Positions 5,914 through 37,397 of a stretch of DNA of 38,276 nucleotides are shown here, piece by piece. A program made the position numbers and the translations under genes. Each line of letters opens with the position of its first letter. Position 1 is the stretch's first letter. Source of the stretch: an uncultured Clostridia bacterium (GTDB lineage Bacteria; Bacillota; Clostridia; TANB77; CAG-508); the NCBI GenBank assembly GCA_947601495.1, contig CANQGE010000014.1, forward strand, positions 1 through 38,276, written 5' to 3'. Under the pieces are notes generated by a model. The model was not told the DNA's origin. It searched no databases and was given only the letters and a program-made list of their open reading frames with translations.

Positions 5914-5928
5914 ATCTATTTTAATTAT

Positions 5929-7029: not shown

Positions 7030-7061
7030 TCATTCTAAGATTAAAGCAAGGAGATAAAACA

Positions 7062-7787: not shown

Positions 7788-7803
7788 ACTTAAAGGAAAG
7801 AAA

Positions 7804-8448
7804 ATGAAAGAAAAAATAAAGAAGTTTCTAAAGAAAAATTTAAAATGGATAATAGTTTTTTTATGCTTAATATATTTTCTAGAAATAACTGGTGATGTAT
7901 ATGAAAAAGAAATTATGACTAAAGATATTATAGGCTATAAAATTGTATCAAAATTTATGTCTGAGTATATAACACCAATTGCTAAATTTATAACACTTTT
8001 TGGAAGTGCTATTACATTAATTTTATTTAGCATAATATTATGCATAATTTTTAAAAACAAAAAAATAGGAATTTCAATTTTTTTAAATTTAGGAATAACT
8101 GGAGCTTTAAATCAAATATTAAAGCAAATTATTCAGCGTCCAAGGCCAACAGAATTAAGACTTGCAGAGGCATCTGGATATAGTTTTCCATCTGGACATT
8201 CTATGGCAAGTGTAGCTTTTTATGGATTTTTAATTTACTTAATATATAAAAAAGTTGAAAATAAAAAAATAAGAAATATTATTATAGCTTGTTTAAGCAT
8301 TTTAATTATATTAATAGGAGCAAGCAGAATTTACTTAGGAGTGCATTATACAAGCGATGTTTTAGCAGGATTCTTAGTTACAATTTCATACTTAATGATT
8401 TATATAAATATAATTGATGATTACATAGGAACCAATAATAAAGATTAA
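7804..8448 (+). CDS. PAP2-family membrane phosphatase
   Basis: Type 2 phosphatidic-acid phosphatase family; such enzymes dephosphorylate lipid phosphates such as phosphatidic acid or undecaprenyl pyrophosphate at the membrane. All three motifs are intact: KQIIQRPRP (KX6RP) near 106, PSGH near 129 and SRIYLGVHYTSD (SRX5HX3D) near 174. About six membrane segments are visible (first near 14-28, last near 186-202). The 214-residue length is normal. It probably shares the thioesterase promoter. Whether it recycles the wall lipid carrier or acts on phospholipids cannot be told from sequence. Confidence 0.9.
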   Translation: MKEKIKKFLKKNLKWIIVFLCLIYFLEITGDVYEKEIMTKDIIGYKIVSKFMSEYITPIAKFITLFGSAITLILFSIILCIIFKNKKIGISIFLNLGITGALNQILKQIIQRPRPTELRLAEASGYSFPSGHSMASVAFYGFLIYLIYKKVENKKIRNIIIACLSILIILIGASRIYLGVHYTSDVLAGFLVTISYLMIYINIIDDYIGTNNKD

Positions 8449-8465
8449 TTTTCTCTTCTTATATA

Positions 8466-8494
8466 TTGACATTACAAAGCAAAAGTGATATTTT
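8466..8494 (+). promoter_or_regulatory. Sigma-A promoter of the Y-family polymerase gene
   Basis: Perfect TTGACA (8466-8471), a 17-base spacer and TATTTT (8489-8494). Confidence 0.7.
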
Positions 8495-8503
8495 ATTACA
8501 AAT

Positions 8504-8517
8504 AGAACTTATGTTCG
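8504..8517 (+). promoter_or_regulatory. LexA (SOS) operator upstream of dinB
   Basis: AGAACTTATGTTCG matches the Gram-positive SOS box CGAAC-N4-GTTCG with one change at the first base. It sits just downstream of the -10 box and directly before the AAGGAG ribosome site. That is a good place for repression of an error-prone polymerase. LexA itself is not in this window. Confidence 0.75.
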
Positions 8518-8532
8518 TAAAAGGAGAAAAAT

Positions 8533-9747
8533 GTGGAAAGGCAAATTTTGCATGTAGATGTTAATAATGCTTTCTTATCTTGGACAGCTGTTTATATGTT
8601 AAAAAACGGATATCATACAGACATTAGAAAAATACCATCAATCATTGGTGGAGATGAAGAGCGTCGTTCAGGAATTGTTTTAGCTAAAAGCCCAATTGCA
8701 AAAAAGTTTGGAATAGTAACAGGAGAACCAATTTATTTTGCAAGAAAAAAATGCAATAAATTAGAAGTTTTTCCAGTAAACTTTGAAGTTTTTAATAAAT
8801 ATTCAAATGATTTATTTAAACTTCTATCTGAATATACAGATAAAATAGAAAGATTTAGTATAGATGAATGTTTTTTAGACTTAACACATTATTTAAGAGG
8901 AAGAAAATTAATAGATGTTGCTTATGAAATAAATAAAAGAGTAGAGAAAGAACTTAAATTTACTGTAAATGTAGGCGTTTCTAGTAATAAACTATTAGCA
9001 AAAATGGCTTCAGATTTTGAAAAACCAAATAAAGTTCACACTCTATATGAATATGAAATTGAAGATAAAATGTGGCCACTTCCAGTTTCAGAGCTTTTTA
9101 TGATTGGAAGAAAAACAGTTCCAAAACTATACAATTTAGGAATTAAAACAATAGGAGATTTAGCAAAATTAGATAAAGATTTTCTAATTAAAAGGTTTGG
9201 AAAATTTGGAATTATGATGTGGAACTATGCAAATGGCATAGATGATTCAGAAGTTGAAGAGAGAAAAGAAGATCCTAAAAGTATTGGAAATTCTGTTACT
9301 TTACCTAAAGATGTTAATAGTATAGAAGAACTAGAAAAAATAGTTTTAGCATTATGTGAGCAAGTTTCTTTTAGGCTTAGAAAACATAATTTAATAGCAA
9401 ACACAGTAAATGTTCAATTAAGAACTAAAGATTTTAAAGACTATTCTCATCAAAAGCAATTAAAGTTTTCAACATCTTCAACAAAAGAAATACTAGAAAC
9501 TGCAAAAGAAATTTTAAAAGAAATGTATAAAAATGAACCTATAAGATTAGTTGGCGTAAGAGCAGATAATTTGGAAGATAAAAATGAGGTACAACTATCA
9601 ATTTTCAAAAACGATGAAAAACAAGATAAAATAGATTCAGTTTTAGATAATATCAAAACTAAATATGGATATAATTCAATAACAAGAGCAGGAAAATTAG
9701 ATGTAGAAAATATTGTTAAAGGAAAGGAGAAGAAAAATCAATTATGA
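8533..9747 (+). CDS. dinB: Y-family DNA polymerase (Pol IV-like)
   Basis: Translesion DNA polymerase acting on damaged templates. The palm carboxylates are visible: DVNNAFLSW at the N-terminus (first Asp at residue 9) and SIDECFLDL with Asp111-Glu112. A helix-hairpin-helix thumb region (FMIGRKTVPKLYNLGIKTIGD) is near 190, and a C-terminal little-finger domain follows from about 250. The first motif, VNNAF, is the variant common in Clostridia rather than the Escherichia DMDAFF. The start is GTG at 8533, 6 bases after AAGGAG; the ATG two bases upstream is out of frame. The stop overlaps the recombinase start (ATGA). An SOS box precedes the gene. Confidence 0.92.
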   Translation: MERQILHVDVNNAFLSWTAVYMLKNGYHTDIRKIPSIIGGDEERRSGIVLAKSPIAKKFGIVTGEPIYFARKKCNKLEVFPVNFEVFNKYSNDLFKLLSEYTDKIERFSIDECFLDLTHYLRGRKLIDVAYEINKRVEKELKFTVNVGVSSNKLLAKMASDFEKPNKVHTLYEYEIEDKMWPLPVSELFMIGRKTVPKLYNLGIKTIGDLAKLDKDFLIKRFGKFGIMMWNYANGIDDSEVEERKEDPKSIGNSVTLPKDVNSIEELEKIVLALCEQVSFRLRKHNLIANTVNVQLRTKDFKDYSHQKQLKFSTSSTKEILETAKEILKEMYKNEPIRLVGVRADNLEDKNEVQLSIFKNDEKQDKIDSVLDNIKTKYGYNSITRAGKLDVENIVKGKEKKNQL

Positions 9748-24354: not shown

Positions 24355-24447
24355 AAATGGAGGTATATAATTGATTTAATGCCAGATTCAGAAATAGAAT
24401 CTAAATTGCAACAAATTGGAAATAGTGAAGAAAACATAAAAAAGAGC

Positions 24448-24477
24448 AAAACTACCCTTAAATGGGTAGTTTTTTTA
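24448..24477 (+). terminator. Intrinsic terminator after malQ
   Basis: AAAACTACCC and GGGTAGTTTT form a 10-bp stem with a 6-base loop and a run of seven T. Between malQ and this hairpin, GGAGG (24359-24363) precedes an open frame with no ATG until 24379 that reads through the hairpin (ends 24495). It may be a remnant of a gene interrupted when the neighbouring recombinase locus arrived. Confidence 0.8.
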
Positions 24478-24515
24478 TATTTTAAACATAGATAAAAGTA
24501 AAAGAGGTGATATAT

Positions 24516-25460
24516 ATGCTAATAAAAGAAAATATCTTAAATAAGAAAAATAAAAGGAATATTGTATTTGAAATTATTGCAAGTGAATGGCTAAAAATCA
24601 AAGAAAAAGAAGTTAAAAAATCTACTTTTTCAAATTATTTATATATTATAAAAAAATATTTAATTTGTGAGTTTGGAAATATGAAGATAGAGAAGCTAGA
24701 AAAAAATGATTTTAATAAATATATTGATATATTAAGTAAAAAATTAAAATCTAAAACAATAAAAGATATTATTATAATTTTAAAGGCTATTTTAAATTAT
24801 TCAAATGAAAAATACAACAGTAATATAAAAACACAAAAAATAAAACCTCCTAAATTAAATCAAGATGTATTGCAAATATTAAATAGAGAAGAAAAAGAAA
24901 AGCTAACAAAATATTGTGTAAAAGAAAATTCTTTTAAAAGTATTGGAATTATAATATGTTTGAATACAGGATTAAGAATTGGAGAGATTTGCGCATTACG
25001 TTTTAAAGATATTGATTTAGACAAAAAAGAAATTTTTATTAAAAACACATTGCAAAGGATTTATGATAGTACTTTAGAGAAAACCAAAATAATTATTGAT
25101 GAACCAAAAACAAAATCATCAGTTAGATGCATACCAATTTCAAATAAATTATATAACATAATAAAGAAAGTTAGTGATAATCATAATGAAAATGACTTCT
25201 TTCTAACTTGTAATGAAAGGCGATATATTGAACCAAGAATTTATAGGGAATATTTTAAAAAAGTATTAATAAAAAGCAAAATAAAATATCCTTATAAATT
25301 TCACGCTTTAAGGCATACATTTGCGACTGAATGTATAGATGTGGGAATGGATGCAAAAAGCTTAAGTGAAATATTAGGACATGCTAATGTGGATATAACT
25401 CTTAACAGATATGTACATTCATCTTATGAAAGAAAAAAGAAATACTTAGAAAAATTATAA
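24516..25460 (+). CDS. Tyrosine site-specific recombinase, candidate DNA invertase
   Basis: Phage-integrase family recombinase. An N-terminal SAM-like core-binding domain (about 15-105) precedes a catalytic domain with Arg154 (LNTGLRIGE), a lysine in the EPKTKSSVRCIPI hairpin, His263-Ala-Leu-Arg266, His289 (ILGHAN) and nucleophile Tyr299 (NRYVHS). I place the start at the ATG at 24516; the in-frame GTG at 24507 overlaps the AGAGG ribosome site. At about 314 residues it is the size of Xer-like invertases and shorter than most phage integrases, with no Arm-binding N-terminal extension. The gene ends 12 bases before the first of two inverted repeats, which suggests it acts on them. Unlike the XerC/D-type gene at 9.7 kb it has no housekeeping context. 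Confidence 0.87.
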   Translation: MLIKENILNKKNKRNIVFEIIASEWLKIKEKEVKKSTFSNYLYIIKKYLICEFGNMKIEKLEKNDFNKYIDILSKKLKSKTIKDIIIILKAILNYSNEKYNSNIKTQKIKPPKLNQDVLQILNREEKEKLTKYCVKENSFKSIGIIICLNTGLRIGEICALRFKDIDLDKKEIFIKNTLQRIYDSTLEKTKIIIDEPKTKSSVRCIPISNKLYNIIKKVSDNHNENDFFLTCNERRYIEPRIYREYFKKVLIKSKIKYPYKFHALRHTFATECIDVGMDAKSLSEILGHANVDITLNRYVHSSYERKKKYLEKL

Positions 25461-25515
25461 AATAAATATCTAATCTTCAAGTTGATAACTTAAAGACTAG
25501 ATATTTATTTTTTTA
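25460..25515 (+). terminator. Terminator hairpin of the recombinase gene, enclosing the left inverted repeat
   Basis: AAATAAATATCTA (25460-25472) pairs perfectly with TAGATATTTATTT (25498-25510), followed by a T run. The left inverted repeat occupies the loop and folds on itself. Inversion of the segment would carry the right arm away and destroy this hairpin. Confidence 0.65.
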
Positions 25516-25687
25516 TATCATAATACCCATAAAAAAGCAATATTTTTTTCGCTTTTTTTAAAAAACACATAAAATTATTATAAACATTATGAAAATAATA
25601 TTTTTTTATTCGTAATCAACAAATATTTGAAGATTTTCCTTACTTTCAATCTTTTAAAATAAATCTTTAAGTTATCAACTTAAAGAT
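25473..25687. repeat. Candidate invertible segment bounded by 25-bp inverted repeats
   Basis: The left repeat (25473-25497) and right repeat (25663-25687) are inverted copies identical at 23 of 25 positions. Each is nearly palindromic, with 9- to 11-base arms around the core AAGTTGATAACTT (left) or AAGTTATCAACTT (right). As direct repeats they match at only 20 of 25, with the asymmetric centre GAT/ATC reversed, so the inverted reading is the better one. The 165 bases between them are extremely AT-rich and hold no ORF. Arms around a short asymmetric core are the expected shape of tyrosine-recombinase sites, and the recombinase gene lies next door. Confidence 0.75.
25512..25540 (-). promoter_or_regulatory. 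Promoter-like sequence inside the invertible segment, pointing left (OFF)
   Basis: On the minus strand TTGCTT (25540-25535), a 17-base spacer and TATAAA (25517-25512), with TG one base before the -10 (extended -10). It now points back toward the recombinase gene. After inversion it would point right, with its start site just before the other repeat and about 50 bases before the first gene of the cassette. An A/T hairpin (AAAAAAGC/GCTTTTTT, 25531-25558) overlaps the -35. In such AT-rich DNA chance matches occur, so the support is moderate. Confidence 0.5.
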
Positions 25688-25711
25688 AAAAAAAGGAGGT
25701 AATATTTATAA

Positions 25712-25852
25712 ATGATTGATTACTATTGCAAATGTAAAGGGTGTAAATACATAGATCCTACAAACAGAAATGGATATAAGTGGTTTTGCGAATATTATGG
25801 TTCTTTTGAAGATCCCGACGAAGTAAAAGAATGTAAATTTTATCAAGAATAG
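25712..25852 (+). CDS. Small Cys-rich protein, first gene of the switch-controlled cassette
   Basis: A 46-residue ORF beginning MIDYYCKCKGCKYIDP. Cysteines fall at 6, 8, 11, 26 and 41 (CxCxxC, then WFCEYY and ECKFY). The pattern resembles small zinc-ribbon-like proteins of mobile regions, and it could also be a second peptide substrate of the radical SAM enzyme downstream. AAAGGAGG lies 12 bases before the ATG, directly after the right inverted repeat. The TAG stop overlaps the ribosome site of the next gene (TAGGAGG), indicating tight coupling. Confidence 0.65.
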   Translation: MIDYYCKCKGCKYIDPTNRNGYKWFCEYYGSFEDPDEVKECKFYQE

Positions 25853-25866
25853 GAGGTAATCATTAA

Positions 25867-26325
25867 ATGATTAAGGTAGAAGAAGAAAGATTATGTGGTA
25901 AATTAAAAGCCATAGAAATGATTTCAGATGATTTTTTAATTGACAGGATAAATCAGTATGCTAATGAAGCAGGAATACCAGTTACTGTTGAAAAAGGAAC
26001 AATAAAGGTAGGTGGCGGGTTATTTGCAAAGCCCGAACCATGCATTGTTGTATATAATAGTAAATTTCGTTCAAAATACTATAATTATGATATAGTGCAA
26101 AGGCAACAGGGAAACTATGTTTTTATTTCAATTTATTATGCAGGAATTAGTGAAAACTATAAAAGAAAAGTTTTTTCTGAAAATTCTAAAAGTCCACTTT
26201 ATGCAGCCTTAATAAAACCAAATGGTGCAAAACATGAGGCAGAACATGCTTATTATGATATTGTTGAAAGCGTAATAAATGATGCTATTGTTTCATCTGA
26301 AAAGCTTATAAAGCCTAATAGATGA
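25867..26325 (+). CDS. Hypothetical protein, single-domain paralogue of the 27959-29188 product
   Basis: A 152-residue cytoplasmic protein of unknown function. It aligns with the N-terminal part of the membrane protein three genes downstream. Shared features are a MIK start, FLIDRINQYANEAG (paralogue LIEKIYQIAQGEN), a beta strand with repeated Tyr, an LIKPN/VLKPN block and the ending YYDIVESVINDAI (paralogue YYDIATNIISQAI). The domain therefore occurs on both sides of the radical SAM gene. AGGAGG precedes the ATG at 10-base spacing. The last 30 bases are partly duplicated just beyond the stop. Confidence 0.7.
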   Translation: MIKVEEERLCGKLKAIEMISDDFLIDRINQYANEAGIPVTVEKGTIKVGGGLFAKPEPCIVVYNSKFRSKYYNYDIVQRQQGNYVFISIYYAGISENYKRKVFSENSKSPLYAALIKPNGAKHEAEHAYYDIVESVINDAIVSSEKLIKPNR

Positions 26326-26353
26326 TGCTATTGTTTTATCTAAAAAGCTTATA
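26281..26353 (+). repeat. Tandem partial duplication at the end of the 152-residue gene
   Basis: The 30 bases at 26281-26310 (GATGCTATTGTTTCATCTGA and on) recur at 26324-26353 with two differences, a period of 43 bases. The second copy follows the stop codon. It marks a recent slip or duplication just before the radical SAM gene. Confidence 0.8.
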
Positions 26354-26415
26354 TATTAAAATATATTGAATTAATTTAAAGAAATATGGTATCTAAAACA
26401 AAAGTGGAGGAAAAA

Positions 26416-27717
26416 GTGAAGCAATCAAAATACAATATTAAAGTAAAACTACCAAATGAAGAAAAATATTTAATTTATAATACTTTATACAAAGGATTAA
26501 TTTGCATTGAACCAGAATTTCTAGATGCTTTAGAAAATTGTAATAGTAAAACCCAAAAACAAAAAGAGGCTATAGAAAGTTTTAAAGAGCAAAAATTTAT
26601 TATTGAAGATGAGGAAAATGAATTTGAATTTTTAAAATATGAATTTTATAAAGCCATGTTCGATAATACAGAGCTAGTATTAACAATAGCACCAACTCTT
26701 GCTTGTAATTTTAGATGTCCTTATTGCTATGAAACAAGTAGAAGCAAAACTATTGATACTAAAGGAATACATGCCATTGTTGATTTTGTGATAGAAAGAT
26801 ATAAAGAAAACAATTTTAAAAAGTTAAAAGTAAATTGGTACGGAGGAGAACCATTATTAGCAATAAACGAAATAGAAGAAATCAGCAAGTTACTTATAGA
26901 GTTTTCTGAAAAAAATAATATAGAATATACTGCTAGAATGGTAACTAATGGTTCATTAATTAATGAAAATATAATTGAAATATTAAAAAGCATAAAAGTT
27001 AAAGACATACAAATAACAATAGATGGTTTAAAAGAAAACCATGATAAAAGAAGAATTTCTAAAGATGGAAAATCTACATTTGACCTTATAATTTCTAATA
27101 CCAAAAAAGCTATAAAAAGTGGCATTACTGTTGGAATTAGGATGAACACAGATGAAGTAAATAAAGATGATTATTCAAAATTAGTAAAAATATTTGAAAA
27201 CGATAAAGAAGTTTATGTATATATGGGACACTTAAGACAATATGATAATAATCTACGTAAACTAGAATATAATTTTTTTTCAAAAGAACGTTTTAGTAAT
27301 CTAGAATATGAAAATTTTGAAAAAATGAATCGTTCTATTGAAGATTTAGAAAATATCTTAGAATGCAAGAAAATATTTTGTTCAGCGACAATAGATAACA
27401 ATTTCATTATTGATGAAAAGTGTAATGTATATAAATGTTGGAATGATATAGGAAATGATAATAGGATTATCTTTAACCTAATGGAAAAACCAGAAAAAAG
27501 AGAAATAAATAAAATAGAACTAATGAAGTATATGGGATGGAATCCATTTAATCAAAAAGAATGCCAGAAATGTAAAGTGTTTCCTATATGTGCTGGAGGC
27601 TGTGCTTTTGAAACTAATAAAGATAAAGAAATATTTTGCTATCCACCAAAATATAATATAGAAAAATATATATTGAAGTATTATTATGAATTAAAAAATA
27701 TAAATAAAAACACATAA
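26416..27717 (+). CDS. Radical SAM/SPASM peptide-maturase-like enzyme
   Basis: Likely a RiPP maturase that uses S-adenosylmethionine and an iron-sulfur cluster to modify a small peptide. Counting from the in-frame ATG at 26386, the radical SAM motif is Cys107, Cys111 and Cys114 (CNFRCPYCYE), with WYGGEPLL near 149. A C-terminal SPASM region carries Cys346, Cys351, then CQKCKVFPICAGGC (393-406) and a last Cys near 417 for auxiliary clusters. Residues about 20-75 look like the N-terminal part of peptide-modifying members. I favour the GTG at 26416 because GGAGG lies 5 bases before it, whereas the ATG at 26386 has no ribosome site. The 41-residue Cys-rich peptide gene follows by 30 bases. It may belong with clostridial Clo7bot-type maturases, but I cannot confirm this. 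Confidence 0.85.
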   Translation: MKQSKYNIKVKLPNEEKYLIYNTLYKGLICIEPEFLDALENCNSKTQKQKEAIESFKEQKFIIEDEENEFEFLKYEFYKAMFDNTELVLTIAPTLACNFRCPYCYETSRSKTIDTKGIHAIVDFVIERYKENNFKKLKVNWYGGEPLLAINEIEEISKLLIEFSEKNNIEYTARMVTNGSLINENIIEILKSIKVKDIQITIDGLKENHDKRRISKDGKSTFDLIISNTKKAIKSGITVGIRMNTDEVNKDDYSKLVKIFENDKEVYVYMGHLRQYDNNLRKLEYNFFSKERFSNLEYENFEKMNRSIEDLENILECKKIFCSATIDNNFIIDEKCNVYKCWNDIGNDNRIIFNLMEKPEKREINKIELMKYMGWNPFNQKECQKCKVFPICAGGCAFETNKDKEIFCYPPKYNIEKYILKYYYELKNINKNT

Positions 27718-27747
27718 ATAGAACTTGTACGAAGGAGGTGATTTGAA

Positions 27748-27873
27748 ATGGAAGTTATAAAAAGAGCAGAAGTAAATAATAGGTATTCAGACAATTTTAT
27801 TAGAAGAGCAAGCTGTATAGGTTGTTTTTGTGATACTAAAAATTGTGGTGAATGCCCAAAAATATTAAAATAA
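27748..27873 (+). CDS. Candidate RiPP precursor peptide, Cys-rich
   Basis: A 41-residue ORF. The first 20 residues (MEVIKRAEVNNRYSDNFIRR) are charged and could be the leader. The C-terminal part is Cys-rich: Cys23, 26, 28, 33 and 36 in SCIGCFCDTKNCGEC. A very strong GAAGGAGGTGA ribosome site sits at good spacing, better than that of its neighbours, fitting a highly made substrate. It lies 30 bases after the radical SAM gene. The residues after each Cys could serve as thioether acceptors, giving a sactipeptide- or ranthipeptide-like product; this is inference. It is not a SCIFF peptide, which has six Cys in another pattern. No export gene is adjacent. Confidence 0.7.
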   Translation: MEVIKRAEVNNRYSDNFIRRASCIGCFCDTKNCGECPKILK

Positions 27874-27893
27874 TTTAGAAGAATAATTTTTGC

Positions 27894-27924
27894 AATATGC
27901 TACTAAATTAATTGGTAGCATATT
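27894..27924 (+). terminator. Hairpin between the precursor peptide gene and the next gene
   Basis: AATATGCTAC and GTAGCATATT form a perfect 10-bp stem with an 11-base loop, 20 bases after the peptide stop. The T tract after it is short. It may be a partial terminator or an RNA-stabilising hairpin that raises peptide mRNA relative to the downstream gene. Confidence 0.55.
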
Positions 27925-27958
27925 ATTTTATGGTGAGTATATAAGAGAGGTAATGAGA

Positions 27959-29188
27959 TTGATAAAATTAAAAAGATATAAACTTATAAGGAAAATAAAA
28001 ACAAAAAATAAATTACCAGAAATAGAATTGATTGAAAAAATATATCAAATAGCTCAAGGAGAAAATATAGGAATTAAAATAGAACAAGATCAAATAAAAT
28101 TAGATAGCAATGATGCTCAAACCGGAATAACTATAAAAAATTCTGTATATGAAAACAGTTATTACTATTATGTTATAATACAAAACAAAGTGGGTATATA
28201 TAATTTTATATATTTATATATAACTGGAAAAAGTAAAAATTTGGATAATAGTGAAAAATCTAAAATATTAAATGAAAATTCAAAAAAATTGAAAAGAGAT
28301 TTAGACAATAGAGTAGAAAGTGGCAGTAATTTTATTGGACTTGCATTTATGGGGACGAGCATTGCAAAAATAAGATCTATTGTGCTAAAGCCAAATGAGA
28401 AAAAAATTCAAGAGGAAAAGAGATATTATGATATAGCAACTAATATCATTAGTCAAGCTATTATGAATTTTGAAAGTAAATATGGTATATTACTAGAAAG
28501 AGAAAGCAATGACAATTTAGATACAAGCAGAAATACTGTAGAATCAAAATCTAATGTTCCACCAAGTCCAAAAAAACAAATAAAAAAGATGTTAAAAGAT
28601 AAGAATTTCTCAGGAAAAATGGTTGGTTTTGCAATTCTTATGATAATCGTTTTTCTTTTAATAAATGATGGCAAACAGGAAACAACCTATTATTATAATA
28701 CAAATAATGAAACTTCTAATAATTTTAATATTGATAATTCCCTAAGCTATACAATTGAAAATTTGAATTATATAATACCAAATGAATTATATGATAGTAG
28801 TAAATATAATTATATTCCAATGGTACAAGATACGATACGTTGGATTGATTTATCAACAGATCTATTTTATGATGTAGATATATTTTTGGAAACAAATTGT
28901 GAGACAGAAGAAGAATATTATGAAGCCCTTAAAAACTTTGACGAAAATCCAACAATTGGAAAATTAGAAGAAGAAAATATAAATGGAACAATATGGAAAA
29001 AAGCAGAAATATCTTATACTACTTTTAGTGATGAAGGAGAAGAAAATACTATTGAATTTCGCTATTTTGTTAAATATAAAGGTAAATTATATGTAGCAAC
29101 ATTTGTTATAGTACAAGAAGAAAACAACCATAATAATTATGATACAACTATTTTTAGAAAAATAAGACAGTCACTTAAATTTAAATAA
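27959..29188 (+). CDS. Two-part membrane protein: paralogous domain, membrane segment, secreted domain
   Basis: Function unknown. About 409 residues from the TTG at 27959, which has AGAGAGG 8 bases upstream and gives the same MIK start as its paralogue; the open frame extends further upstream without a better start. Residues about 1-170 form the domain shared with the 152-residue protein upstream. A Ser, Asn and Lys linker follows, then one membrane segment (MVGFAILMIIVFLLI, near 220-235). The outer domain (about 265-409) has alternating strands such as YTIENLNYIIPNELYD and FRYFVKYKGKLYVATFVIV. It looks like the PsbP/Mog1-like small domains of clostridial lipoproteins. It could be a sensor or immunity protein of the peptide cassette. 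Confidence 0.65.
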   Translation: MIKLKRYKLIRKIKTKNKLPEIELIEKIYQIAQGENIGIKIEQDQIKLDSNDAQTGITIKNSVYENSYYYYVIIQNKVGIYNFIYLYITGKSKNLDNSEKSKILNENSKKLKRDLDNRVESGSNFIGLAFMGTSIAKIRSIVLKPNEKKIQEEKRYYDIATNIISQAIMNFESKYGILLERESNDNLDTSRNTVESKSNVPPSPKKQIKKMLKDKNFSGKMVGFAILMIIVFLLINDGKQETTYYYNTNNETSNNFNIDNSLSYTIENLNYIIPNELYDSSKYNYIPMVQDTIRWIDLSTDLFYDVDIFLETNCETEEEYYEALKNFDENPTIGKLEEENINGTIWKKAEISYTTFSDEGEENTIEFRYFVKYKGKLYVATFVIVQEENNHNNYDTTIFRKIRQSLKFK

Positions 29189-29264
29189 AAAGAAGTTTAC
29201 TATAACTATGAAGTAAACCTAAATTGTTAGACAAAAAGTTTAGCAAGGAGGATTCTGCTTTATT

Positions 29265-29357
29265 ATGAAAGATGAAATCTCCAGTATTTCTCAAAAAACA
29301 AATAATGTTTTTTTATTAATAATAAAATTTGCAATTTTTAGTCGAAATAATATATAA
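29265..29357 (+). CDS. Possible 30-residue ORF in the gap before the NUDIX gene
   Basis: MKDEISSISQKTNNVFLLII continues for ten more residues and ends at 29357. A strong AAGGAGG lies upstream but 13 bases away, which is long. The 3' end overlaps the NUDIX promoter. The C-terminal half is hydrophobic. It is weakly supported and may not be translated. Confidence 0.25.
   Translation: MKDEISSISQKTNNVFLLIIKFAIFSRNNI
29328..29357 (+). promoter_or_regulatory. Promoter of the NUDIX gene
   Basis: TTGCAA, an 18-base spacer and a perfect TATAAT, ending about 40 bases before the coding start. Confidence 0.65.
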
Positions 29358-29396
29358 TAGTAAAAAAGTGGGGGAAATAAAAAGGAGATGTTTTAT

Positions 29397-29903
29397 ATGG
29401 AAGTTTGGGATTTATATGATGAAAATAAAAATGTAACTGGAAAATATTGCATAAGAGGAAATGAAATTCCAGATAATTATTATCATTTAGTTGTTCATGT
29501 ATGGATAAAGAATAGTGAAGGAAAATATTTAGTTTCACAAAGATCAGAAAGCAGACCTACTTTTCCGTTAATGTGGGAATGTGTTGGTGGTTCAGTATTG
29601 AAAGACGAAAATAGTTTGGAAGGAGCAATAAGAGAAACTAAAGAAGAAGTAGGAATAGACTTTAAGAAATCAGAAGGAAAAATGGTATATAGTGAAATTA
29701 GGAAAAAAGTTGGCGGAAAAAAATATAATGATATTATGGACGTTTGGCTATTTGAATATAATGGGGAAGTTAATTTAAAAAATGCAACAACTGACGAAGT
29801 TAGAGATGTTAAATGGATGAGAAAAGAAGAAATAAAAGAATTACTAAAAAACAATAAATTAGTTCCGACACTAGATTATTTTTTTGATGAAATAAATATA
29901 TGA
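29397..29903 (+). CDS. NUDIX hydrolase
   Basis: Hydrolyses a nucleoside diphosphate linked to another group; the substrate is not readable from sequence. The full Nudix box is present (G-x5-E-x7-REUxEExGU): it runs from GSVLKDE through GAIRETKEEVGI, at about residues 63-85. N-terminal MEVWDLYDENKNVTGK and VHVWIKNSEGKYLVSQRS resemble isopentenyl-diphosphate isomerase-like and YfcD-like Nudix proteins. I place the start at the ATG at 29397 because GGAG abuts the ATG at 29388. Monocistronic, with its own promoter and terminator. Confidence 0.88.
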   Translation: MEVWDLYDENKNVTGKYCIRGNEIPDNYYHLVVHVWIKNSEGKYLVSQRSESRPTFPLMWECVGGSVLKDENSLEGAIRETKEEVGIDFKKSEGKMVYSEIRKKVGGKKYNDIMDVWLFEYNGEVNLKNATTDEVRDVKWMRKEEIKELLKNNKLVPTLDYFFDEINI

Positions 29904-29929
29904 GGGCTTACCAAAAATGGTAGGCTCTT
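29902..29929 (+). terminator. Terminator-like hairpin after the NUDIX gene
   Basis: GAGGGCTTACCA and TGGTAGGCTCTT pair over 12 positions (three G-T) around AAAA, starting at the stop codon. The T tract is weak. Confidence 0.6.
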
Positions 29930-29951
29930 AATATTATAAGGAGTAATAAAA

Positions 29952-30077
29952 ATGCAAATAAATGTAGGATGTTTTTATTTTATAAAAGATTCATTTTTTA
30001 ATATTATAGATGATTTAGAGTTGATGAAAAATATTATATTTTCTAATATTGACAAAATATTAGAACAATTATTATAA
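29952..30077 (+). CDS. 41-residue ORF, possible remnant of a type III TA toxin N-terminus
   Basis: MQINVGCFYFIKDSFFNIID followed by 21 residues ending KILEQLL. A proper AAGGAG ribosome site lies 8 bases from the ATG. The opening (hydrophobic strand, FYFIKD, FF, then a leucine-methionine-lysine-asparagine stretch) reminds me of the N-termini of small clostridial toxins of the ToxN/AbiQ or CptN kind, which are about 150 residues or more. If so this is a truncated copy. No repeat array precedes it here. The match is from memory and tentative. Confidence 0.4.
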   Translation: MQINVGCFYFIKDSFFNIIDDLELMKNIIFSNIDKILEQLL

Positions 30078-30202
30078 CTTTAATCTTTGAAACAATTAAA
30101 AATTATAAATGTTCGTTGAAAATATATAAAATTTATGATATTACAGTAATAGAATAATAAATAAAGTGTTCAATAAAAAATTAAAAGAAAACAGGAGAAA
30201 GA

Positions 30203-31231
30203 ATGAAAAAGTACCAAATTTTAGAAGAATTAGTAAAGTTTAATACTATTAAAGATAAAGACAATAAAAATATATTAAACTATATAGAAAATATTTTAAA
30301 AGAAAAAGGGTTTACAGTTCAATATAAAAGTAAATTATTGATAATGAGTTACGGAAAAAATCCTACATTTGGTTTTCTAGGTCATACAGATACAGTTGAA
30401 TACATAGATGGATGGAATACAAATCCATTTATTCTTACTGATAAAATGGATAAACTATATGGCTTAGGTTCATGCGATATGAAAGGGGGAATAGCTGCCA
30501 TACTCGATGCAATAAATGATATTGATTTAAGCCAAGTAAAAAATGGGATAAAACTATATTTTACATATGATGAAGAAATTAATTTTAGTGGAATTAATGA
30601 ATTAGTAAAAAACAACGAAAAATTTCCCGATTTTATGGTTTTTGGCGAACCTACTAATAATGAGATTGTTATAGGAAGTAAAGGATTATTGCAATTTGAT
30701 TTATATTTTAAAGGTATAAAAACTCATTCTAGTACTCCAGATAAGGGGAAAAGTGCAAATTTAAATGCTATACATTTCTTAAGCGAACTTGAAAATTTTT
30801 ATTTAAAAAACATAAAAAAAGATATAAATATGAATTACGAAATACCTTATACTACTATGAATATAGGACTTTTAAATGGTGGAAGTTCACAAAATTCTAT
30901 ACCTGCAAAATGCTATGCTTCATTAGATTTTAGGTTAATAGATTCTAATCATTCTAAATTAATCTTAGATGAAATTAAAGAGTTATGCCCAAAATATGAT
31001 AGTGAATATAAGATAACAATAAATATAGAACCGTTTATAAATAATGTTAATTTACAAAACAATGGAAAAACATCAAATTTTATTACTGAAGCAAGCTTTA
31101 TAAATTGTAAAAATAAAATAATTTTAGGTTTAGGTCCTATAACAGCTCACGAAATAGACGAGCATATAGATAAAAAAAGTTATGATCAATTAATAAATCA
31201 ATATAAAATCTTAATTAAAAAATTTGCATAA
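30203..31231 (+). CDS. M20-family metallopeptidase (ArgE/DapE-like)
   Basis: Zinc-dependent deacylase or peptidase of the M20 family, cytoplasmic. Metal and catalytic residues are visible: His61 and Asp63 in LGHTDTVE, Asp92 in GSCDMKGG, Glu124-Glu125 in TYDEE, a Glu near 149 in FGEPTN, and His316 in ITAHEIDEHI. The inserted dimerisation domain (about 160-270) includes KGIKTHSSTPDKGKSANLNA. At 342 residues it is slightly shorter than typical ArgE/DapE. The exact substrate (acetylornithine, succinyl-diaminopimelate or another peptide) cannot be fixed, and no arginine or lysine genes are adjacent. A weak promoter (TTGAAA at 30116, TATTAC at 30139) precedes it. Confidence 0.88.
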   Translation: MKKYQILEELVKFNTIKDKDNKNILNYIENILKEKGFTVQYKSKLLIMSYGKNPTFGFLGHTDTVEYIDGWNTNPFILTDKMDKLYGLGSCDMKGGIAAILDAINDIDLSQVKNGIKLYFTYDEEINFSGINELVKNNEKFPDFMVFGEPTNNEIVIGSKGLLQFDLYFKGIKTHSSTPDKGKSANLNAIHFLSELENFYLKNIKKDINMNYEIPYTTMNIGLLNGGSSQNSIPAKCYASLDFRLIDSNHSKLILDEIKELCPKYDSEYKITINIEPFINNVNLQNNGKTSNFITEASFINCKNKIILGLGPITAHEIDEHIDKKSYDQLINQYKILIKKFA

Positions 31232-31242
31232 AATTGTACTAT

Positions 31243-31271
31243 TTGAAAAGATATAACCATTGTTATATAAT
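31243..31271 (+). promoter_or_regulatory. Promoter of the unknown-serpin gene pair
   Basis: TTGAAA (31243-31248), a 17-base spacer and TATAAT (31266-31271). Confidence 0.75.
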
Positions 31272-31321
31272 ATTAATATAAAAGATTTATTAAATAAGAA
31301 TATGAAAGAGGAAAATAATTT

Positions 31322-32281
31322 ATGAGAGATTCAAATAAAAAATGGTTTCAAGCACCAATATATACTAGAAAATTATATTTTAAAAATGCAAGTGAATGTA
31401 TAGAAAGAAAGTGTGGTAGAGGCAAATTTTCTATACAAGAACTATTAGAAAAAATATCACCTAAAAATAATAATTTGAAACATACAATGAGATTAAGCAA
31501 CGTACCAAGAAGTTTAATACATTATGGCAGAAAGGGTGATACAATTGATAGAGATTATATGTTTTATATATATGCTCAAAACTTTATGAGAGAACATTCA
31601 AGTTCTAATACTTTGTTCATTAATTATACTGGTCATTCAGGACCAGTTGCGGCTGCTTTAGCCGAACACAATATTCCAACATACTGGCAAATGGATCTAT
31701 CAGAGGATAATATAGCTGAAGATAGAATACTTGGCCAAATACAAGATTACATTAACATTATAACCAAAAATGAAAACACTAATAATTCAAATCTTGCACT
31801 TATGTTAGAACCACCTCATAGTTTTATTCCAACAGTAATACAATCTGCTTTACCTTCTATAGAGGCATTAAAACTTCAAAAAATAAGAAAAATTGTTATT
31901 TTTACAGAAGATCCATTCGGAGAAGAAACAAATGAATGCCCTAATTCAGATACATTTTTTTTAGGTATAAAAAGTTTTGTTGATAAATTAACTCAGTCAG
32001 GATTTGAAATCGAATTTGTTGGTCTGGATTGCAAAGATAAAAGTCAACAAAATTCTGATTTTATATGTCCTGATAAAGAAAAAATCGTAGATCTTTCTGA
32101 ATATGAACAAAATTTTGATGTAGCTACAATAGAAGCAACAGAACCTTTTACAATGGATAGAAGGGAAGAAGAAACAATTTCAATATCAGAACTACTAAAA
32201 AAAGCTTTGGCTTCTAGTATTTCAAGACATGCTATAGATGAAGAAGAAAAAGAAGATGATGACCACAGCAATGAAAAATAA
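31322..32281 (+). CDS. Hypothetical protein paired with the serpin
   Basis: A 319-residue cytoplasmic protein I do not recognise. The central part has alternating strands and helices, with the conspicuous INYTGHSGPVAAALAEHNIP near 100-119, LALMLEPPHSF near 160 and KIVIFTEDPFGEE near 190. This suggests a Rossmann-like or nucleotide-binding fold without a P-loop. The C-terminus is strongly acidic (DEEEKEDDDHSNEK). A GAGG ribosome site precedes the ATG. The serpin gene starts 16 bases after the stop, so they form an operon, though no functional link is evident. Confidence 0.65.
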   Translation: MRDSNKKWFQAPIYTRKLYFKNASECIERKCGRGKFSIQELLEKISPKNNNLKHTMRLSNVPRSLIHYGRKGDTIDRDYMFYIYAQNFMREHSSSNTLFINYTGHSGPVAAALAEHNIPTYWQMDLSEDNIAEDRILGQIQDYINIITKNENTNNSNLALMLEPPHSFIPTVIQSALPSIEALKLQKIRKIVIFTEDPFGEETNECPNSDTFFLGIKSFVDKLTQSGFEIEFVGLDCKDKSQQNSDFICPDKEKIVDLSEYEQNFDVATIEATEPFTMDRREEETISISELLKKALASSISRHAIDEEEKEDDDHSNEK

Positions 32282-32297
32282 TAAAAAGGAGTTTTAA

Positions 32298-33593
32298 ATG
32301 GAAGAAAATAATAAAAAAAGAAAAATTAAATTAACCACATTAATAGTTATAATATTAATTGTGTTAATACTTATTGCTGGAATAATTATAACAAGATTAA
32401 ATAAAAATATTGATAGTAAAAATGAAGATATGAACACAACACAAATAGTAGATAAAACAACAAATACAAGGATAAATTTTACTTATAATGATTTTGACTT
32501 TAAATTCTTAAAAATGGAAAATAAGAAAAACAACATAGTTTATAGCCCATTATCTATAAAATATGCTTTAAAAATGCTTAATGATGGCGCAAATGGAAAT
32601 ACTAAAACTCAAATTGAGAGTGTAATTGGAGATATAGATTTAGTAAAATATGATAATATAGATAATATATTATCCTTAGCAAATGCATTATATATTAGAG
32701 ATACATATTCACAATATATAAAAGATGAATATAAAGATATATTACTTAATAAATATAATGCTGAAATAAAATATGATGCCTTTAGAAGTGCTGATGATAT
32801 TAATAATTGGATTGAAAATAAAACTTTTGGACAAATAAAAAATATGTTGAAAGATGAAATAGTAACAAATCCAAATAATAAAATGTTTTTAATAAATGCA
32901 TTAGCTATTGATATGGCATGGAAAGATAGATTTGATGAAAATAAAACTCATGGAAGTGAATTCTATTTAGAAAATGGTAATGAAATGACTACAACAATGA
33001 TGAATCAAGTAACAAAAAGTGATAATGTTTCATATTATAAAGATAGCAATGTTACTGCAATTTCAATGGACTTAGAAGAATATGAAAATGAACAAATGGA
33101 ATTTATTACCATTATGCCTAATAATGATCTATCAAATTATGTAAAAAATTTGGAAGAGGATACTTTAAAAAATATAATAAGTAATTTAACATTAGCTTCT
33201 AAAACCAAAAATGGTTTAGATATTTTTATACCAAAATTTTCATTTGATTATGAATTAAGCTTAAGTGATGATTTAAAAAATTTAGGGATAACGGATGCAT
33301 TTGATGGAAATTTAGCTGATTTTTCAAATATGTCAAGCAAAGGATCTCTTTATGTGGGAGAAGTCCTACATAAAGCTAATATTGATTTTTCAGAAAAAGG
33401 AATTAAAGCAGCAGCTGCAACGGTTATTTATATGACTGAGAAAGCTGCAATGCTTAATGAAGATGAGCCTATTGAAGTCAGGATAGATAAGCCATTTATG
33501 TATTTAATAAGAGATAAAAAAGCAGATGAAATATGGTTTGTAGGAACAGTTTATGAACCAAGTTCTTGGGAAAATGATAAAGCAAGCTATTAG
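32298..33593 (+). CDS. Membrane-anchored serpin (serine protease inhibitor)
   Basis: Serpins trap serine or cysteine proteases by a conformational change. Here an N-terminal membrane segment (about 12-31) would display the serpin domain outside the cell, as expected for protection against host or community proteases. NIVYSPLSIKYALKMLNDGA near 77 and FLINALAIDMAWKDRFDENK near 198 are classic serpin blocks. The hinge is EKGIKAAAAT (366-375). The P14 residue is Ile rather than the usual Thr or Ser, while the poly-Ala P12-P9 is kept. The reactive loop continues VIYMTEKAAMLNEDEP, placing P1 around Thr-Glu-Lys-Ala. The closing strand IDKPFMYLIRD follows. 431 residues, normal length. Confidence 0.92.
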   Translation: MEENNKKRKIKLTTLIVIILIVLILIAGIIITRLNKNIDSKNEDMNTTQIVDKTTNTRINFTYNDFDFKFLKMENKKNNIVYSPLSIKYALKMLNDGANGNTKTQIESVIGDIDLVKYDNIDNILSLANALYIRDTYSQYIKDEYKDILLNKYNAEIKYDAFRSADDINNWIENKTFGQIKNMLKDEIVTNPNNKMFLINALAIDMAWKDRFDENKTHGSEFYLENGNEMTTTMMNQVTKSDNVSYYKDSNVTAISMDLEEYENEQMEFITIMPNNDLSNYVKNLEEDTLKNIISNLTLASKTKNGLDIFIPKFSFDYELSLSDDLKNLGITDAFDGNLADFSNMSSKGSLYVGEVLHKANIDFSEKGIKAAAATVIYMTEKAAMLNEDEPIEVRIDKPFMYLIRDKKADEIWFVGTVYEPSSWENDKASY

Positions 33594-33683
33594 TATAGAT
33601 AAATATAGCAAGTTGTATATAAAAGCAAAGAAAAAAATGAACTAAAATGATAAAAATAAAATTAATAATAAAAGGATAACAAT

Positions 33684-35195
33684 ATGAAGAAATATAGATA
33701 TGAAATAATAATATTTACAGTAGATGCAATATGTATGATTCTTGAATTAATTGCCTCAAGAGTAATTTCTCCATATTTTGGAAACTCAAATTTAGTATGG
33801 ACAAGTGTAATAGGAATAATTTTATTGAGTAGCAGTATAGGTAATTATTTAGGAGGTAAAATTGCTGATAGAAAAGAAGTAACTAAAAATTTAAAAATAA
33901 TATTAATGTTTACATCACTCTCAATATTTATTATACCATTGCTACAAAAAATTATATTAAATTTATTATCAAGTACTATACATGATGTAAGAATAGGTGC
34001 AGTACTTGCAGCAATAACACTGTTTTTCATTCCATCATTATTAATGGGAATTTTAACACCGATAATTCTTAAATTAAAATTAGATAGTATTGAAACGGCT
34101 GGAAAAGTTGCGGGAAAAATAACAGCAATTGCAACAATAGGAGGAATAGTAGGAACTTTTTTAGGAGGATTTTTCTTAATACCTAGCTATGGAAGTATAC
34201 ATATTTTGTATGTACTAACGATAATAATTGCGTTGTTAATGCCACTAGTAAATTGCAAAATAAAAGACAAAAGTAATATCTTTACAATAGTAATTACAAT
34301 AGCATCAATTCTTTTAATGATTAGTAATATAAACATAAACAATATAAAAGGAGAAGATGTTTTAGAAGGAAATTCAAAAACAAAAGATGACTATGTTAGT
34401 TATGATACGCAATATGGTAGAGTTCTTATATATAACACAAAAAGAAATGGCGAAAATATTAGAATGTTAGATATAGATAGTGGATACGAATCAGCAACAT
34501 TTACAGATGAAGGAAGACAAAATGATTTAGTTTTTGACTATACAAAATTTTATGACTTAATGTTTAAAGCAAATATACCAATAAAAGATACAATGTTAAT
34601 AGGTGGAGCAGGTTATTCATACCCAAAATATTTTATAAGTAATTATGAAGATAAGAATATGGATGTAGTGGAAATTGATGAAGAAATAACAAATATTGCA
34701 AAAAAATATTTCTATCTAGATAAATTAATACAAGATTATAACATAAACCAAAATCATAGATTAAACTTTATTACTGCAGATGGAAGAACATATTTAAATG
34801 ATACGACAAAGAAATATGATGCAATATTAAATGATGCTTTTTCAGGCTTAGCACCAGTAAAAACTTTGACTACAATAGAAGCAGTACAAAAAATAAAAGG
34901 AGCCTTAAATGAGGGTGGACTATATTTAACAAACGTAATATCTTCTCTAGAAGGAAAAGATTCTAAATTTATAAAGGCAGAAGTAAATACATTAAAAAAA
35001 GTTTTTAAAAATGTATATGTTATACCTTGTAATACAATTACTGAATTAGAAATGATCCAAAATAATATGGTAATAGCATCAGATGATGATATAAACCTAA
35101 CAGGAGTAAATGTTTGTGAATTAAAAATAGATGAAAAAGAAATAGTATTAACAGATGATTACTGTCCAATTGATACACTTGTACCACAAGGATGA
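33684..35195 (+). CDS. Fused membrane/spermidine synthase-like protein
   Basis: A 503-residue protein of the fused MFS/spermidine-synthase type. The N-terminal half has about seven to eight hydrophobic segments (roughly 8-215). The C-terminal half (about 235-480) is a Rossmann-fold aminopropyltransferase-like domain: LIGGAGYSYPKY near 306, VVEIDEE near 328, ITADGRTYL near 364 and LNDAFSGLAP near 382. Whether it makes a polyamine or only uses the fold is unknown; the Asp-rich polyamine-binding motif is not clearly conserved. An AAAAGGATAAC ribosome site precedes the ATG. No other polyamine genes are adjacent. Confidence 0.87.
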   Translation: MKKYRYEIIIFTVDAICMILELIASRVISPYFGNSNLVWTSVIGIILLSSSIGNYLGGKIADRKEVTKNLKIILMFTSLSIFIIPLLQKIILNLLSSTIHDVRIGAVLAAITLFFIPSLLMGILTPIILKLKLDSIETAGKVAGKITAIATIGGIVGTFLGGFFLIPSYGSIHILYVLTIIIALLMPLVNCKIKDKSNIFTIVITIASILLMISNININNIKGEDVLEGNSKTKDDYVSYDTQYGRVLIYNTKRNGENIRMLDIDSGYESATFTDEGRQNDLVFDYTKFYDLMFKANIPIKDTMLIGGAGYSYPKYFISNYEDKNMDVVEIDEEITNIAKKYFYLDKLIQDYNINQNHRLNFITADGRTYLNDTTKKYDAILNDAFSGLAPVKTLTTIEAVQKIKGALNEGGLYLTNVISSLEGKDSKFIKAEVNTLKKVFKNVYVIPCNTITELEMIQNNMVIASDDDINLTGVNVCELKIDEKEIVLTDDYCPIDTLVPQG

Positions 35196-35232
35196 AGTAG
35201 CTGAACAAATGCATTCGATTTATAATTGCTTG

Positions 35233-35261
35233 TTTACATAATAATTATAATATGATATAAT
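35233..35261 (+). promoter_or_regulatory. Promoter of the 35309 gene
   Basis: TTTACA (35233-35238), a 17-base spacer with TGA at its end, and TATAAT (35256-35261). Confidence 0.7.
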
Positions 35262-35308
35262 AAATATAGTGTTTAAAAAATTATAATATATAAGGAGAAA
35301 ATTTATTT

Positions 35309-36250
35309 ATGAAAAAAATAAGAATGCAATACCCATATGATTCGTCAGGAAGAAATCCAAGTTATGATGGTAGACTTCATGATGTACAGCCTACTTCGCT
35401 TTATAGAACAATAATAAGAGGAATACCTTTTTATGTAATGTCATATCATGATTTAACTCTAAATTCTGATATGATTACATTAGTAGTTGATATAAATGGA
35501 CAAATTGCTAAAGTTCCTTTAAGTGACTACTCTACATTTTCTCAGTTCTTAGAAAGTGCAAATTTAACACCAATCTCACCAGAAAAGGTAGATAGAATAC
35601 TTCCAAATGAAGTTGGACTATCTGAGCAAATGGATGCATCTAACTTATTTCCACCGGTCCCACCTACTAAAGCAGCTACATTATTTCCGCCAGTTCCACC
35701 TATTCATCCAAGAGAAAATAATTTTCAAAGTGAAAGAAAAAATGTAATAGATGTTTCTTTATATGTTCCAACAAGAGATAATGAACCAATATGTACTGTT
35801 TATAGACAAAGTCTTATTACAACAGAAGCCTATTATTCATATTATCAAACATTTAAATTTGAAGAAGAACCTCTTTTTAGCGAACTATATCAAGGAATAG
35901 CTAGAAATAGAAGAAAAAACGGAACAGTTGAATTTGATATCGACGTTCCACCTGGAACAACAGCTTCACAAATAGTGTTAGATGAAACTGGAAGAGCCGT
36001 TAAACAACTTCTATTATTGATCCCTGGCACTCATCACTATACTGTTACATATGCAGATACTTTATCAAAACAAAAATATGATGCAGCAAAAAATAGTTTA
36101 AATGCAGAAATAACAGCAAGATTAAGAGACAGAGAAAGTATGACTTCTGCTTTTAGAGGTGGCTTCTCAGGTAGACTTCCAATAGAATTTAGTGATAAAT
36201 TAGGTAAAAAAAGACAATTTGATGCAGAGTATACGAGAAACGGTTATTAA
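35309..36250 (+). CDS. Hypothetical protein with Pro-rich central repeats
   Basis: 313 residues with no recognised domain, signal peptide or membrane segment. The N-terminal part (about 1-105) looks globular. It is followed by a Pro-rich linker with two copies of LFPPVPP (about 114-134). The C-terminal part (about 145-313) includes VEFDIDVPPGTTASQIVLDE and many Arg residues. The duplicated proline motif could bind an SH3-like or similar partner. Monocistronic: its own promoter before it and a terminator after. Confidence 0.65.
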   Translation: MKKIRMQYPYDSSGRNPSYDGRLHDVQPTSLYRTIIRGIPFYVMSYHDLTLNSDMITLVVDINGQIAKVPLSDYSTFSQFLESANLTPISPEKVDRILPNEVGLSEQMDASNLFPPVPPTKAATLFPPVPPIHPRENNFQSERKNVIDVSLYVPTRDNEPICTVYRQSLITTEAYYSYYQTFKFEEEPLFSELYQGIARNRRKNGTVEFDIDVPPGTTASQIVLDETGRAVKQLLLLIPGTHHYTVTYADTLSKQKYDAAKNSLNAEITARLRDRESMTSAFRGGFSGRLPIEFSDKLGKKRQFDAEYTRNGY

Positions 36251-36266
36251 TATAATAAATTATAAT

Positions 36267-36296
36267 AAAGTCCCTATTTTATTTAGGGATTTTATT
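36267..36296 (+). terminator. Intrinsic terminator of the 35309 gene
   Basis: AAAGTCCCTA and TAGGGATTTT pair over 10 bases (one G-T) around TTTTATT, followed by T-rich sequence. Confidence 0.8.
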
Positions 36297-36446: not shown

Positions 36447-37397
36447 ATGGAAGAAAAGAAAAATGAAATTATAATATTTGAAAATCAAGATGTTAAACTT
36501 GAAGTTAATATGAAAGATGAAACAGTTTGGCTTACTCAAAAACAAATGGCAGATTTATTTGGTAAAGATAGAAGAACAATTACGAGACATATTCAAAACA
36601 TATACAATGATGGCGAATTAGATGAAAATTCAGTATGCTCATTTTTTGAGCATACTGCAAAAGATGGAAAAAGATATAATGTTCAATATTATAATCTCGA
36701 TATGATAATCTCTGTTGGTTATAGAGTTAATAGTAAGCAAGGTATTATCTTTAGAAAATGGGCTACAAATATTTTAAAAGACTATATGTTAAAAGGTTAT
36801 GCTGTAAATCAAAAAAGATTAGAATATTTAGAAAAGACAATAAAGCTTATAGATATTGCTAATAGAATTGATGAAAGATTAGAAGGAAATGATGCAAAAG
36901 AAATTTTAAAAGTAATTGGAGATTATTCAAAAGCATTAGATTTATTAGATGATTATGATCATAGAACTTTAAAGAAAATTGATGGAAATATAGACGAAAG
37001 AAAAGTTGAATATAATGAATGCTTAAAAGTTATAGATAAATTAAGATTTAATCAAGAAAGCTCTTTATTTGCAGTAGAAAGAGATAAAGGATTAGAATCA
37101 ATTATTGGTAATATTTATCAAAGTTTTGCTGGACAAGACATTTATAAAAGTATAGAAGAAAAAGGAGCTAATTTTTTATATTTAATTGTGAAAAATCATG
37201 TATTTGCTGATGGAAATAAAAGAATAGCAGCTACTTTATTTATATATTTCTTGAATTTTTACGGTATTTTATACAAAAATGGAAAACAAACAATAGATAA
37301 TAATACTTTAGCTGCATTAACTTTGTTAATAGCAGAATCAAATCCTAAAGAAAAAGAAATTCTTATAGATTTAGTAATGAATTTTTTAAATGATTAA
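36447..37397 (+). CDS. RhuM-Fic/Doc fusion protein
   Basis: A 316-residue two-domain protein. The N-terminal RhuM-type domain (about 10-125) contains TVWLTQKQMADLFGKDRRTI, which resembles a DNA-binding helix-turn-helix. The C-terminal Fic/Doc domain (about 190-316) carries HVFADGNKR at 251-259, the HxFx(D/N)GNKR motif needed for nucleotide transfer by Fic and Doc enzymes. Such proteins AMP-ylate or phosphorylate targets and often act as toxins, so RhuM may act as a DNA-binding regulator of its own gene. I see no separate antitoxin gene and no clear (S/T)xxxE(G/N) inhibitory helix. A strong promoter and hairpin leader precede it. Confidence 0.88.
   Translation: MEEKKNEIIIFENQDVKLEVNMKDETVWLTQKQMADLFGKDRRTITRHIQNIYNDGELDENSVCSFFEHTAKDGKRYNVQYYNLDMIISVGYRVNSKQGIIFRKWATNILKDYMLKGYAVNQKRLEYLEKTIKLIDIANRIDERLEGNDAKEILKVIGDYSKALDLLDDYDHRTLKKIDGNIDERKVEYNECLKVIDKLRFNQESSLFAVERDKGLESIIGNIYQSFAGQDIYKSIEEKGANFLYLIVKNHVFADGNKRIAATLFIYFLNFYGILYKNGKQTIDNNTLAALTLLIAESNPKEKEILIDLVMNFLND

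Follow-up and report, generated by a model that had tools for sequence, protein, structure and literature searches.

Between a tyrosine recombinase gene and a peptide-maturation cassette of an uncultured Clostridia bacterium lie two short inverted repeats, and an earlier note on this DNA had read them as the ends of an invertible promoter segment, i.e. as a phase-variation switch. Is this what the locus is? The window analysed here is a stretch of 38,276 nucleotides with a GC content of 27%; it makes up the whole of contig C14, from a genome of 1.67 Mb and 72.7% completeness. We consider it probable that the window carries a recombinase-linked phase-variation switch, in which a promoter segment inverts and controls the cassette. 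The proposal is supported by the inverted sites of relatives, by site cores that were found inverted and never direct, by outward-facing promoters and by the presence of both orientations among relatives. The features of the locus are listed in Table 1.

Table 1. Features of the candidate switch and of the cassette, with positions in the window.
Feature	Position	Strand	Basis
Tyrosine recombinase, 314 aa, proposed DNA invertase of the switch	24516..25460	+	Pfam, residue alignment, tree
Terminator-like hairpin at the recombinase 3' end; the left site is its core, one outer stem arm lies inside the segment	25462..25508		folding
Left recombination site, imperfect palindrome, core TTGATAA	25473..25497	+	repeat, core and palindrome tests
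Putative invertible segment, 165 nt between the 25-nt repeats	25498..25662		repeat search
Candidate sigma-A-type promoter TTGCTT-17-TATAAA, extended -10 TG, leftward	25512..25540	-	position as in nine relatives
Right recombination site, inverted copy, cassette ribosome-binding site directly 3'	25663..25687	-	repeat and core tests
Ribosome-binding site AAAAAGGAGGT of the first cassette gene	25690..25700	+	read from sequence
46-aa Cys-rich small protein, first cassette gene	25712..25852	+	no family match
152-aa protein, resembles the N-terminus of the 411-aa protein	25867..26325	+	sequence comparison
Radical SAM/SPASM-type peptide maturase	26386..27717	+	profile match
41-aa peptide, Cys-rich C-terminus SCIGCFCDTKNCGECPKILK, candidate precursor	27748..27873	+	no family match
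411-aa protein, last cassette gene, hydrophobic stretch like a membrane helix (by eye)	27953..29188	+	sequence

The recombinase matches the Pfam Phage_integrase family with 104 bits, against a cutoff of 27 (9e-30), and has an N-terminal SAM-like domain in addition. Its catalytic positions, which we take to be R154, K198, H263, R266, H289 and Y299, all fall in invariant columns of an alignment with three relatives at about 50% (a fifth row duplicates the window protein), and this bears out the earlier statement that the recombinase has all its catalytic residues. In a tree it clusters with the recombinases of genome G072 and of locus L311/L085 (99/90), the latter showing the same layout as the window. 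L311 is the nearest relative with this layout (54%); it has the same site arms, a different core and a segment of 168 nt. At the G072 locus, whose recombinase is the closest overall (61%), no site pair was detectable. Genome G230 holds five matches to the window recombinase (L286, L288, L289, L290 and L309), two of them equal in score and perhaps copies; three of the five precede pilin-like genes, as judged by eye, and their site sequences differ.

A repeat search recovered the 25-bp repeat as it had been described, 12 nt past the recombinase stop codon and with its inverted copy 165 nt further on, 23/25 positions being identical after reverse-complementing one copy (23/24 in a 24-nt version). 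Five closely spaced genes follow, the first ATG standing 24 nt past the right copy. Each copy is itself a near-palindrome, TCTTTAAGTT-GAT-AACTTAAAGA, and the two copies read as direct repeats are still 84% identical, so that the core alone decides whether the pair is inverted or direct. Here the core matches at 7/7 positions in the inverted reading versus 4/7 in the direct one; the asymmetric core is indeed reversed between the copies, as claimed. A search of the window's own genome with the 18-mer AAGTTGATAACTTAAAGA, allowing at most 2 mismatches, gave three matches, namely both sites without mismatch and one sequence with 2 mismatches. As the control search with the reversed pattern gave 4 matches, the 2-mismatch matches are put down to chance.

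How such repeats are placed across the recombinase family was examined on the best 80 of 546 confirmed relatives in the genome collection, with inverted repeats counted at a score of at least 17. A repeat encloses the recombinase gene in 41/80 of these loci, lies downstream of it in 3 and upstream in 2, and is lacking in 34, while controls placed in the flanking DNA of these loci gave 0/95 enclosing, 5/95 downstream and 90/95 none. Enclosing repeats are thus far above control, downstream ones by themselves are not (3/80 of the best 80 versus 5/95), and the downstream class therefore needs the further tests reported below. L085 was classed as upstream in this survey on another repeat, its downstream pair being found later on the same contig (L311). 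In a further set of 29 classed loci (from 33, no recombinase being found by motif in 4), no inverted repeat was present in 20/29 at the thresholds used and 4 were classed as downstream, one of them, L266, on a 16-bp pair 1151 nt apart that is probably a chance match. The strict palindrome filter called only L311 downstream in its set. The detected site pairs of the family thus mostly enclose the recombinase gene (41/80 of the best 80 of 546), which would then flip together with the segment; the window's own subclade differs in having the segment downstream of the gene. In one genome (G014, L040 5078-8567), a family recombinase with long inverted repeats at its locus stands between two opposed genes that weakly match type I restriction specificity subunits.

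An orientation-blind test, in which palindromic sites were paired by their arms alone, found a pair in 26/119 rows, with loci L165-L244 and L259-L285 excluded and identical pairs counted once. The cores were inverted in 25 of these 26 pairs, tied in 1 and direct in 0. Five of the 25 inverted pairs are downstream pairs, the window among them, and two of the 25 (L118 and L155) sit in long inverted duplications. The motif AAGT-N5-ACTT, present in the window sites, occurs in 15/49 sites, compared to a mean of 0.03 in mononucleotide shuffles; this count omits 5 of the 41 enclosing loci (L111, L118, L132, L155 and L157), whose repeats are long or cut by an edge.

Ten loci, window included, share the order recombinase, site, 118-172 nt, site, operon. 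They were picked for having a downstream site pair, and the pairs of L307, L308, L309 and L286, being below thresholds, were read by eye. The core sequence varies between these loci and agrees within each; as the loci were found as inverted repeats, the informative part is that core agreement exceeds arm agreement. Promoters were scored with a simple sigma-A matrix. The best promoter faces outward in 10/10 loci, its -10 end 10-23 nt from the repeat that it faces, a slot that was defined after the distances had been seen and into which shuffles place their best match in 8-15%. Scores as high were reached by at most 2% of shuffles for 8/9 relatives, and by 5% for L311. The promoter points away from the operon in seven loci (window, L311, L306, L307, L308, L313 and L286) and towards it in three (L309, L036 and L113). 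At L113, 158 nt separate the recombinase stop from the site; the recombinase of L036 (genome G010) is split over two overlapping frames.

Of the ten, the window has the weakest candidate promoter. The number of promoter-like matches between 24300 and 26500 is at chance in a consensus scan (19, versus a mean of 17.1), the best promoter of the segment is equalled or beaten in 74% of shuffles, and 11% of shuffles hold one as good within the 10-23 nt slot; the best rightward candidate scores 5.2 versus 5.8 for the leftward one. The claim of a window promoter therefore rests on the position in relatives. It faces away from the cassette, and 15 nt separate the end of its -10 box from the left site. 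For the leftward promoter-like element proposed in the earlier note, the position agrees with that in the relatives, and the score did not rise above chance. Because the position is shared with relatives, the window as sequenced is best read as being in the OFF state. In-silico inversion places the end of the -10 box at about 25648, just before the right site, in agreement with the predicted start next to the right repeat.

On the minus strand, the hairpin at the left site has a predicted stem of 20 or more pairs. It folds at -18.0 kcal/mol on the plus strand, i.e. in the recombinase transcript, and at -26.6 kcal/mol on the minus strand, in a leftward transcript. Upon in-silico inversion the plus-strand hairpin drops to -6.8 kcal/mol and its T run is gone; folding hence confirms the claim that inversion breaks the recombinase terminator. 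In L311 and L286 the left site is also a hairpin with T's after it. Taken with the window, this makes it seem that one site serves in both termination and recombination.

The switch would then work as follows. The recombinase would pair the two palindromic sites and exchange strands within their identical asymmetric cores, flipping the 165-nt segment in place. In the OFF state, presumably the one sequenced, the segment promoter would fire leftwards into the strong hairpin made by the left site and its flanks, which would stop this transcript and also end that of the recombinase. After inversion, with the -10 box ending at about 25648 and transcription starting just before the right site, the transcript would cross the right-site hairpin, which has no T run after it, and continue through the ribosome-binding site into the five genes of the cassette, which would then be ON.

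Both orientations are found among relatives. The segment of L307 (genome G334) aligns better with that of L309 (G230) when reverse-complemented (z 5.2 versus 1.5), and so does the second G230 copy, L286 (z 3.5 versus -0.2). The L308 segment is less clear (z 3.5 reverse-complemented versus 2.7), and the L306 segment reached z 3 in neither orientation. In genomes G016 and G019, the same 26-nt site pair surrounds the recombinase, and the recombinase block is oppositely oriented; related TnpB-like and exopolysaccharide sugar-transferase genes lie downstream in both, the TnpB-like match having been computed for G016 only. All these comparisons are between species or paralogs, and therefore show a change of orientation in evolution rather than a frequency of switching in cells. 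TnpB-like proteins are encoded at L037 6308-7501, L038 6439-7632 and L094 1503-2690, those of L037 and L094 having the Pfam Cas12f1-like TNB domain, and L042 and L043 start similarly. In several species this gene is the first after the invertible recombinase block or site pair, before polysaccharide-type genes, and the protein may have been recruited as a regulator.

Could the repeats regulate the cassette as operators, or as two hairpins, with no inversion at all? Their near-perfect palindromy, by which the copies look alike either way, would suit such a role, and downstream repeat pairs are no commoner than in the control. The orientation-blind test, with inverted cores in 25/26 pairs, one tie and no direct core, speaks against it, and so do the cores of the ten layout-matched loci, which differ between loci yet agree within each: strand exchange needs this agreement, an operator does not. 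We hold this explanation to be highly improbable. Inversion might also take place and act on termination instead, the segment working as a terminator or leader-RNA switch that stops outside transcription in one orientation, as in cwpV of Clostridioides difficile (21-bp repeats 195 bp apart, no internal promoter; PMC2784873). The weak score of the window promoter and the change of the left-site hairpin upon inversion are both compatible with this; yet the cassette would need read-through from the recombinase, and nine relatives of the same layout carry promoters in the outward slot, at scores that shuffles seldom reach. A switch of this type is unlikely here.

A third explanation is that a mobile element left the repeats as remnants of its attachment sites and that the recombinase is its integrase. 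In its favour, the chromosome varies after malQ: where the window has 24356-36294, the close species G016, whose aligned blocks share 87-97% DNA identity with the window genome, has 3.2 kb of other genes. This variable stretch neither begins nor ends at either recombination site, however; the repeats form an inverted pair separated by 165 nt, unlike direct repeats that flank an element, and no tRNA gene was found in the window. An empty site with these repeats at its borders was not observed either. An Rfam search of the window gave nothing at gathering scores. On the close inverted repeats, the missing tRNA gene and the mismatched ends of the variable stretch, the mobile-element explanation was rejected; it is hardly credible. 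The preferred reading is that of a promoter segment inverted by its neighbouring recombinase.

What would such a promoter control? The nearest NCBIfam model of the maturase is the Clo7bot maturase (TIGR04334), at 297.8 bits for a cutoff of 600, which by sequence makes it a relative of this family and not a member. Its relatives are distant and few, in 8/384 other genomes of the order at E 1e-20. The best match among 385 order genomes is partial (41%, with stops), on a G366 contig (L251) where three Cys-rich ORFs of 30-43 aa lie upstream of it, and which also encodes an AgrB-like protein and an ABC transporter, both below their models' cutoffs. The two Cys-rich ORFs flanking the maturase block in the window, of 46 and 41 aa, gave no family matches. 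The cassette product is likely a modified Cys-rich peptide, for which the 41-aa ORF appears the better precursor candidate. The 411-aa protein matches the 152-aa protein at its N-terminus (34%). The 152-aa protein was found in 0/55 other relatives and in no plasmid record, the 411-aa protein in 0/390 other genomes of the class, and the cassette DNA was absent from the phage records searched. Structure models made without alignment were too poor, with a mean pLDDT of 44 (152-aa) and 34 (411-aa).

The layout-matched relatives carry other cargos. As judged by eye, these include pilin-like proteins, further secreted proteins and an operon of polysaccharide type; a protein with a VWA domain and a gene cluster in which a MutS_I-domain gene occurs together with a reverse transcriptase were also seen. 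Among the adjacent operons examined in the recombinase family, a cassette of radical SAM and Cys-rich peptide genes was seen only in the window. A radical SAM motif scan of 212 recombinase loci (80, 40, 12 and 80 viral, partly overlapping) gave 2 matches. That of L131 is, as judged by eye, far from a peptide cassette. The other is on a viral contig (L239 3853-10697), where a radical SAM gene of 458 aa is found near the gene of a 281-aa protein that contains 41 cysteines, and some 3 kb away from a distant integrase (27%) that is surrounded by a 15-nt inverted pair; the claim of a unique cargo is therefore limited to operons adjoining recombinases. At L036 (G010:C2:36000-52000, 2627-9238, minus strand), a two-frame recombinase with a downstream site pair is followed by an ON-facing promoter, TTGACA-17-TAAAAT. 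The gene behind this promoter has a MutS_I match; more distal are a reverse transcriptase and, as judged by eye, genes for an Avd-like and a pilin-like protein. This locus resembles a diversity-generating retroelement that an invertible promoter would control.

Most of the invertible promoters known so far stand in front of genes for surface structures. Like the window, fimS of E. coli is a short invertible promoter segment near its recombinase genes, fimB and fimE, but it is a 314-bp element with fimbrial cargo. The Mpi switches of Bacteroides fragilis are likewise invertible promoters between inverted repeats that set operon expression ON or OFF; unlike in the window, one recombinase serves at least 13 switches, with capsule cargo at seven. 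In C. difficile, recV is located away from the flg and cwpV switches. The window has instead one recombinase beside one site pair, and an internal promoter is proposed. The flg and cwpV switches, where RecV acts, also combine a tyrosine recombinase with 21-bp imperfect inverted repeats, around segments that measure 154 and 195 bp, similar in size to that of the window, and precede an operon or gene; RecV acts at more than one switch, and flg and cwpV have no internal promoter (PMC5386303, PMC2784873). The Mpi-controlled switches are mentioned in PMC5386303. In Clostridia, invertible segments near tyrosine recombinases are known and their flipping has been seen in reads (PMC11892184). Inverton group 139 with invertase group 35 likewise has a tyrosine-type recombinase near short invertons, with orientation shifts measured from reads, e.g. 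in Clostridium sp. D5 (PMC11892184). The layout therefore agrees, as the earlier note had it, with clostridial and Bacteroides switches of the same kind.

The window fits a known kind of Clostridia switch, and it is the cargo that stands out. The words peptide, bacteriocin and radical SAM are all absent from the main text of PMC11892184. In the open-access literature, no phase-variable RiPP was the subject of any of the titles listed, no text contained both inverton and RiPP, and nothing was found on Clo7bot. We would give even chances to the fuller picture, in which a RiPP-like pathway, its cassette absent elsewhere in the genomes searched, operates only in those cells that a dedicated recombinase has switched on, and one site also serves to terminate both the recombinase transcript and that of the OFF-state promoter. 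A switch in front of a peptide-maturation cassette would mean that only some cells of a clonal population produce a secreted or signalling peptide, which may help to explain the apparent silence of such clusters. The family also offers a search rule: a recombinase, a palindromic site with inverted core, and an outward promoter at a short fixed distance from the repeat.

Two minor observations concern the window itself. Just past the variable stretch, at 36447-37397, a RhuM-type N-terminal part is fused to a Fic domain (Pfam). Across the 3' end of the 152-aa gene, at 26267-26352, there is a 43-nt direct duplication (91%) that looks recent.
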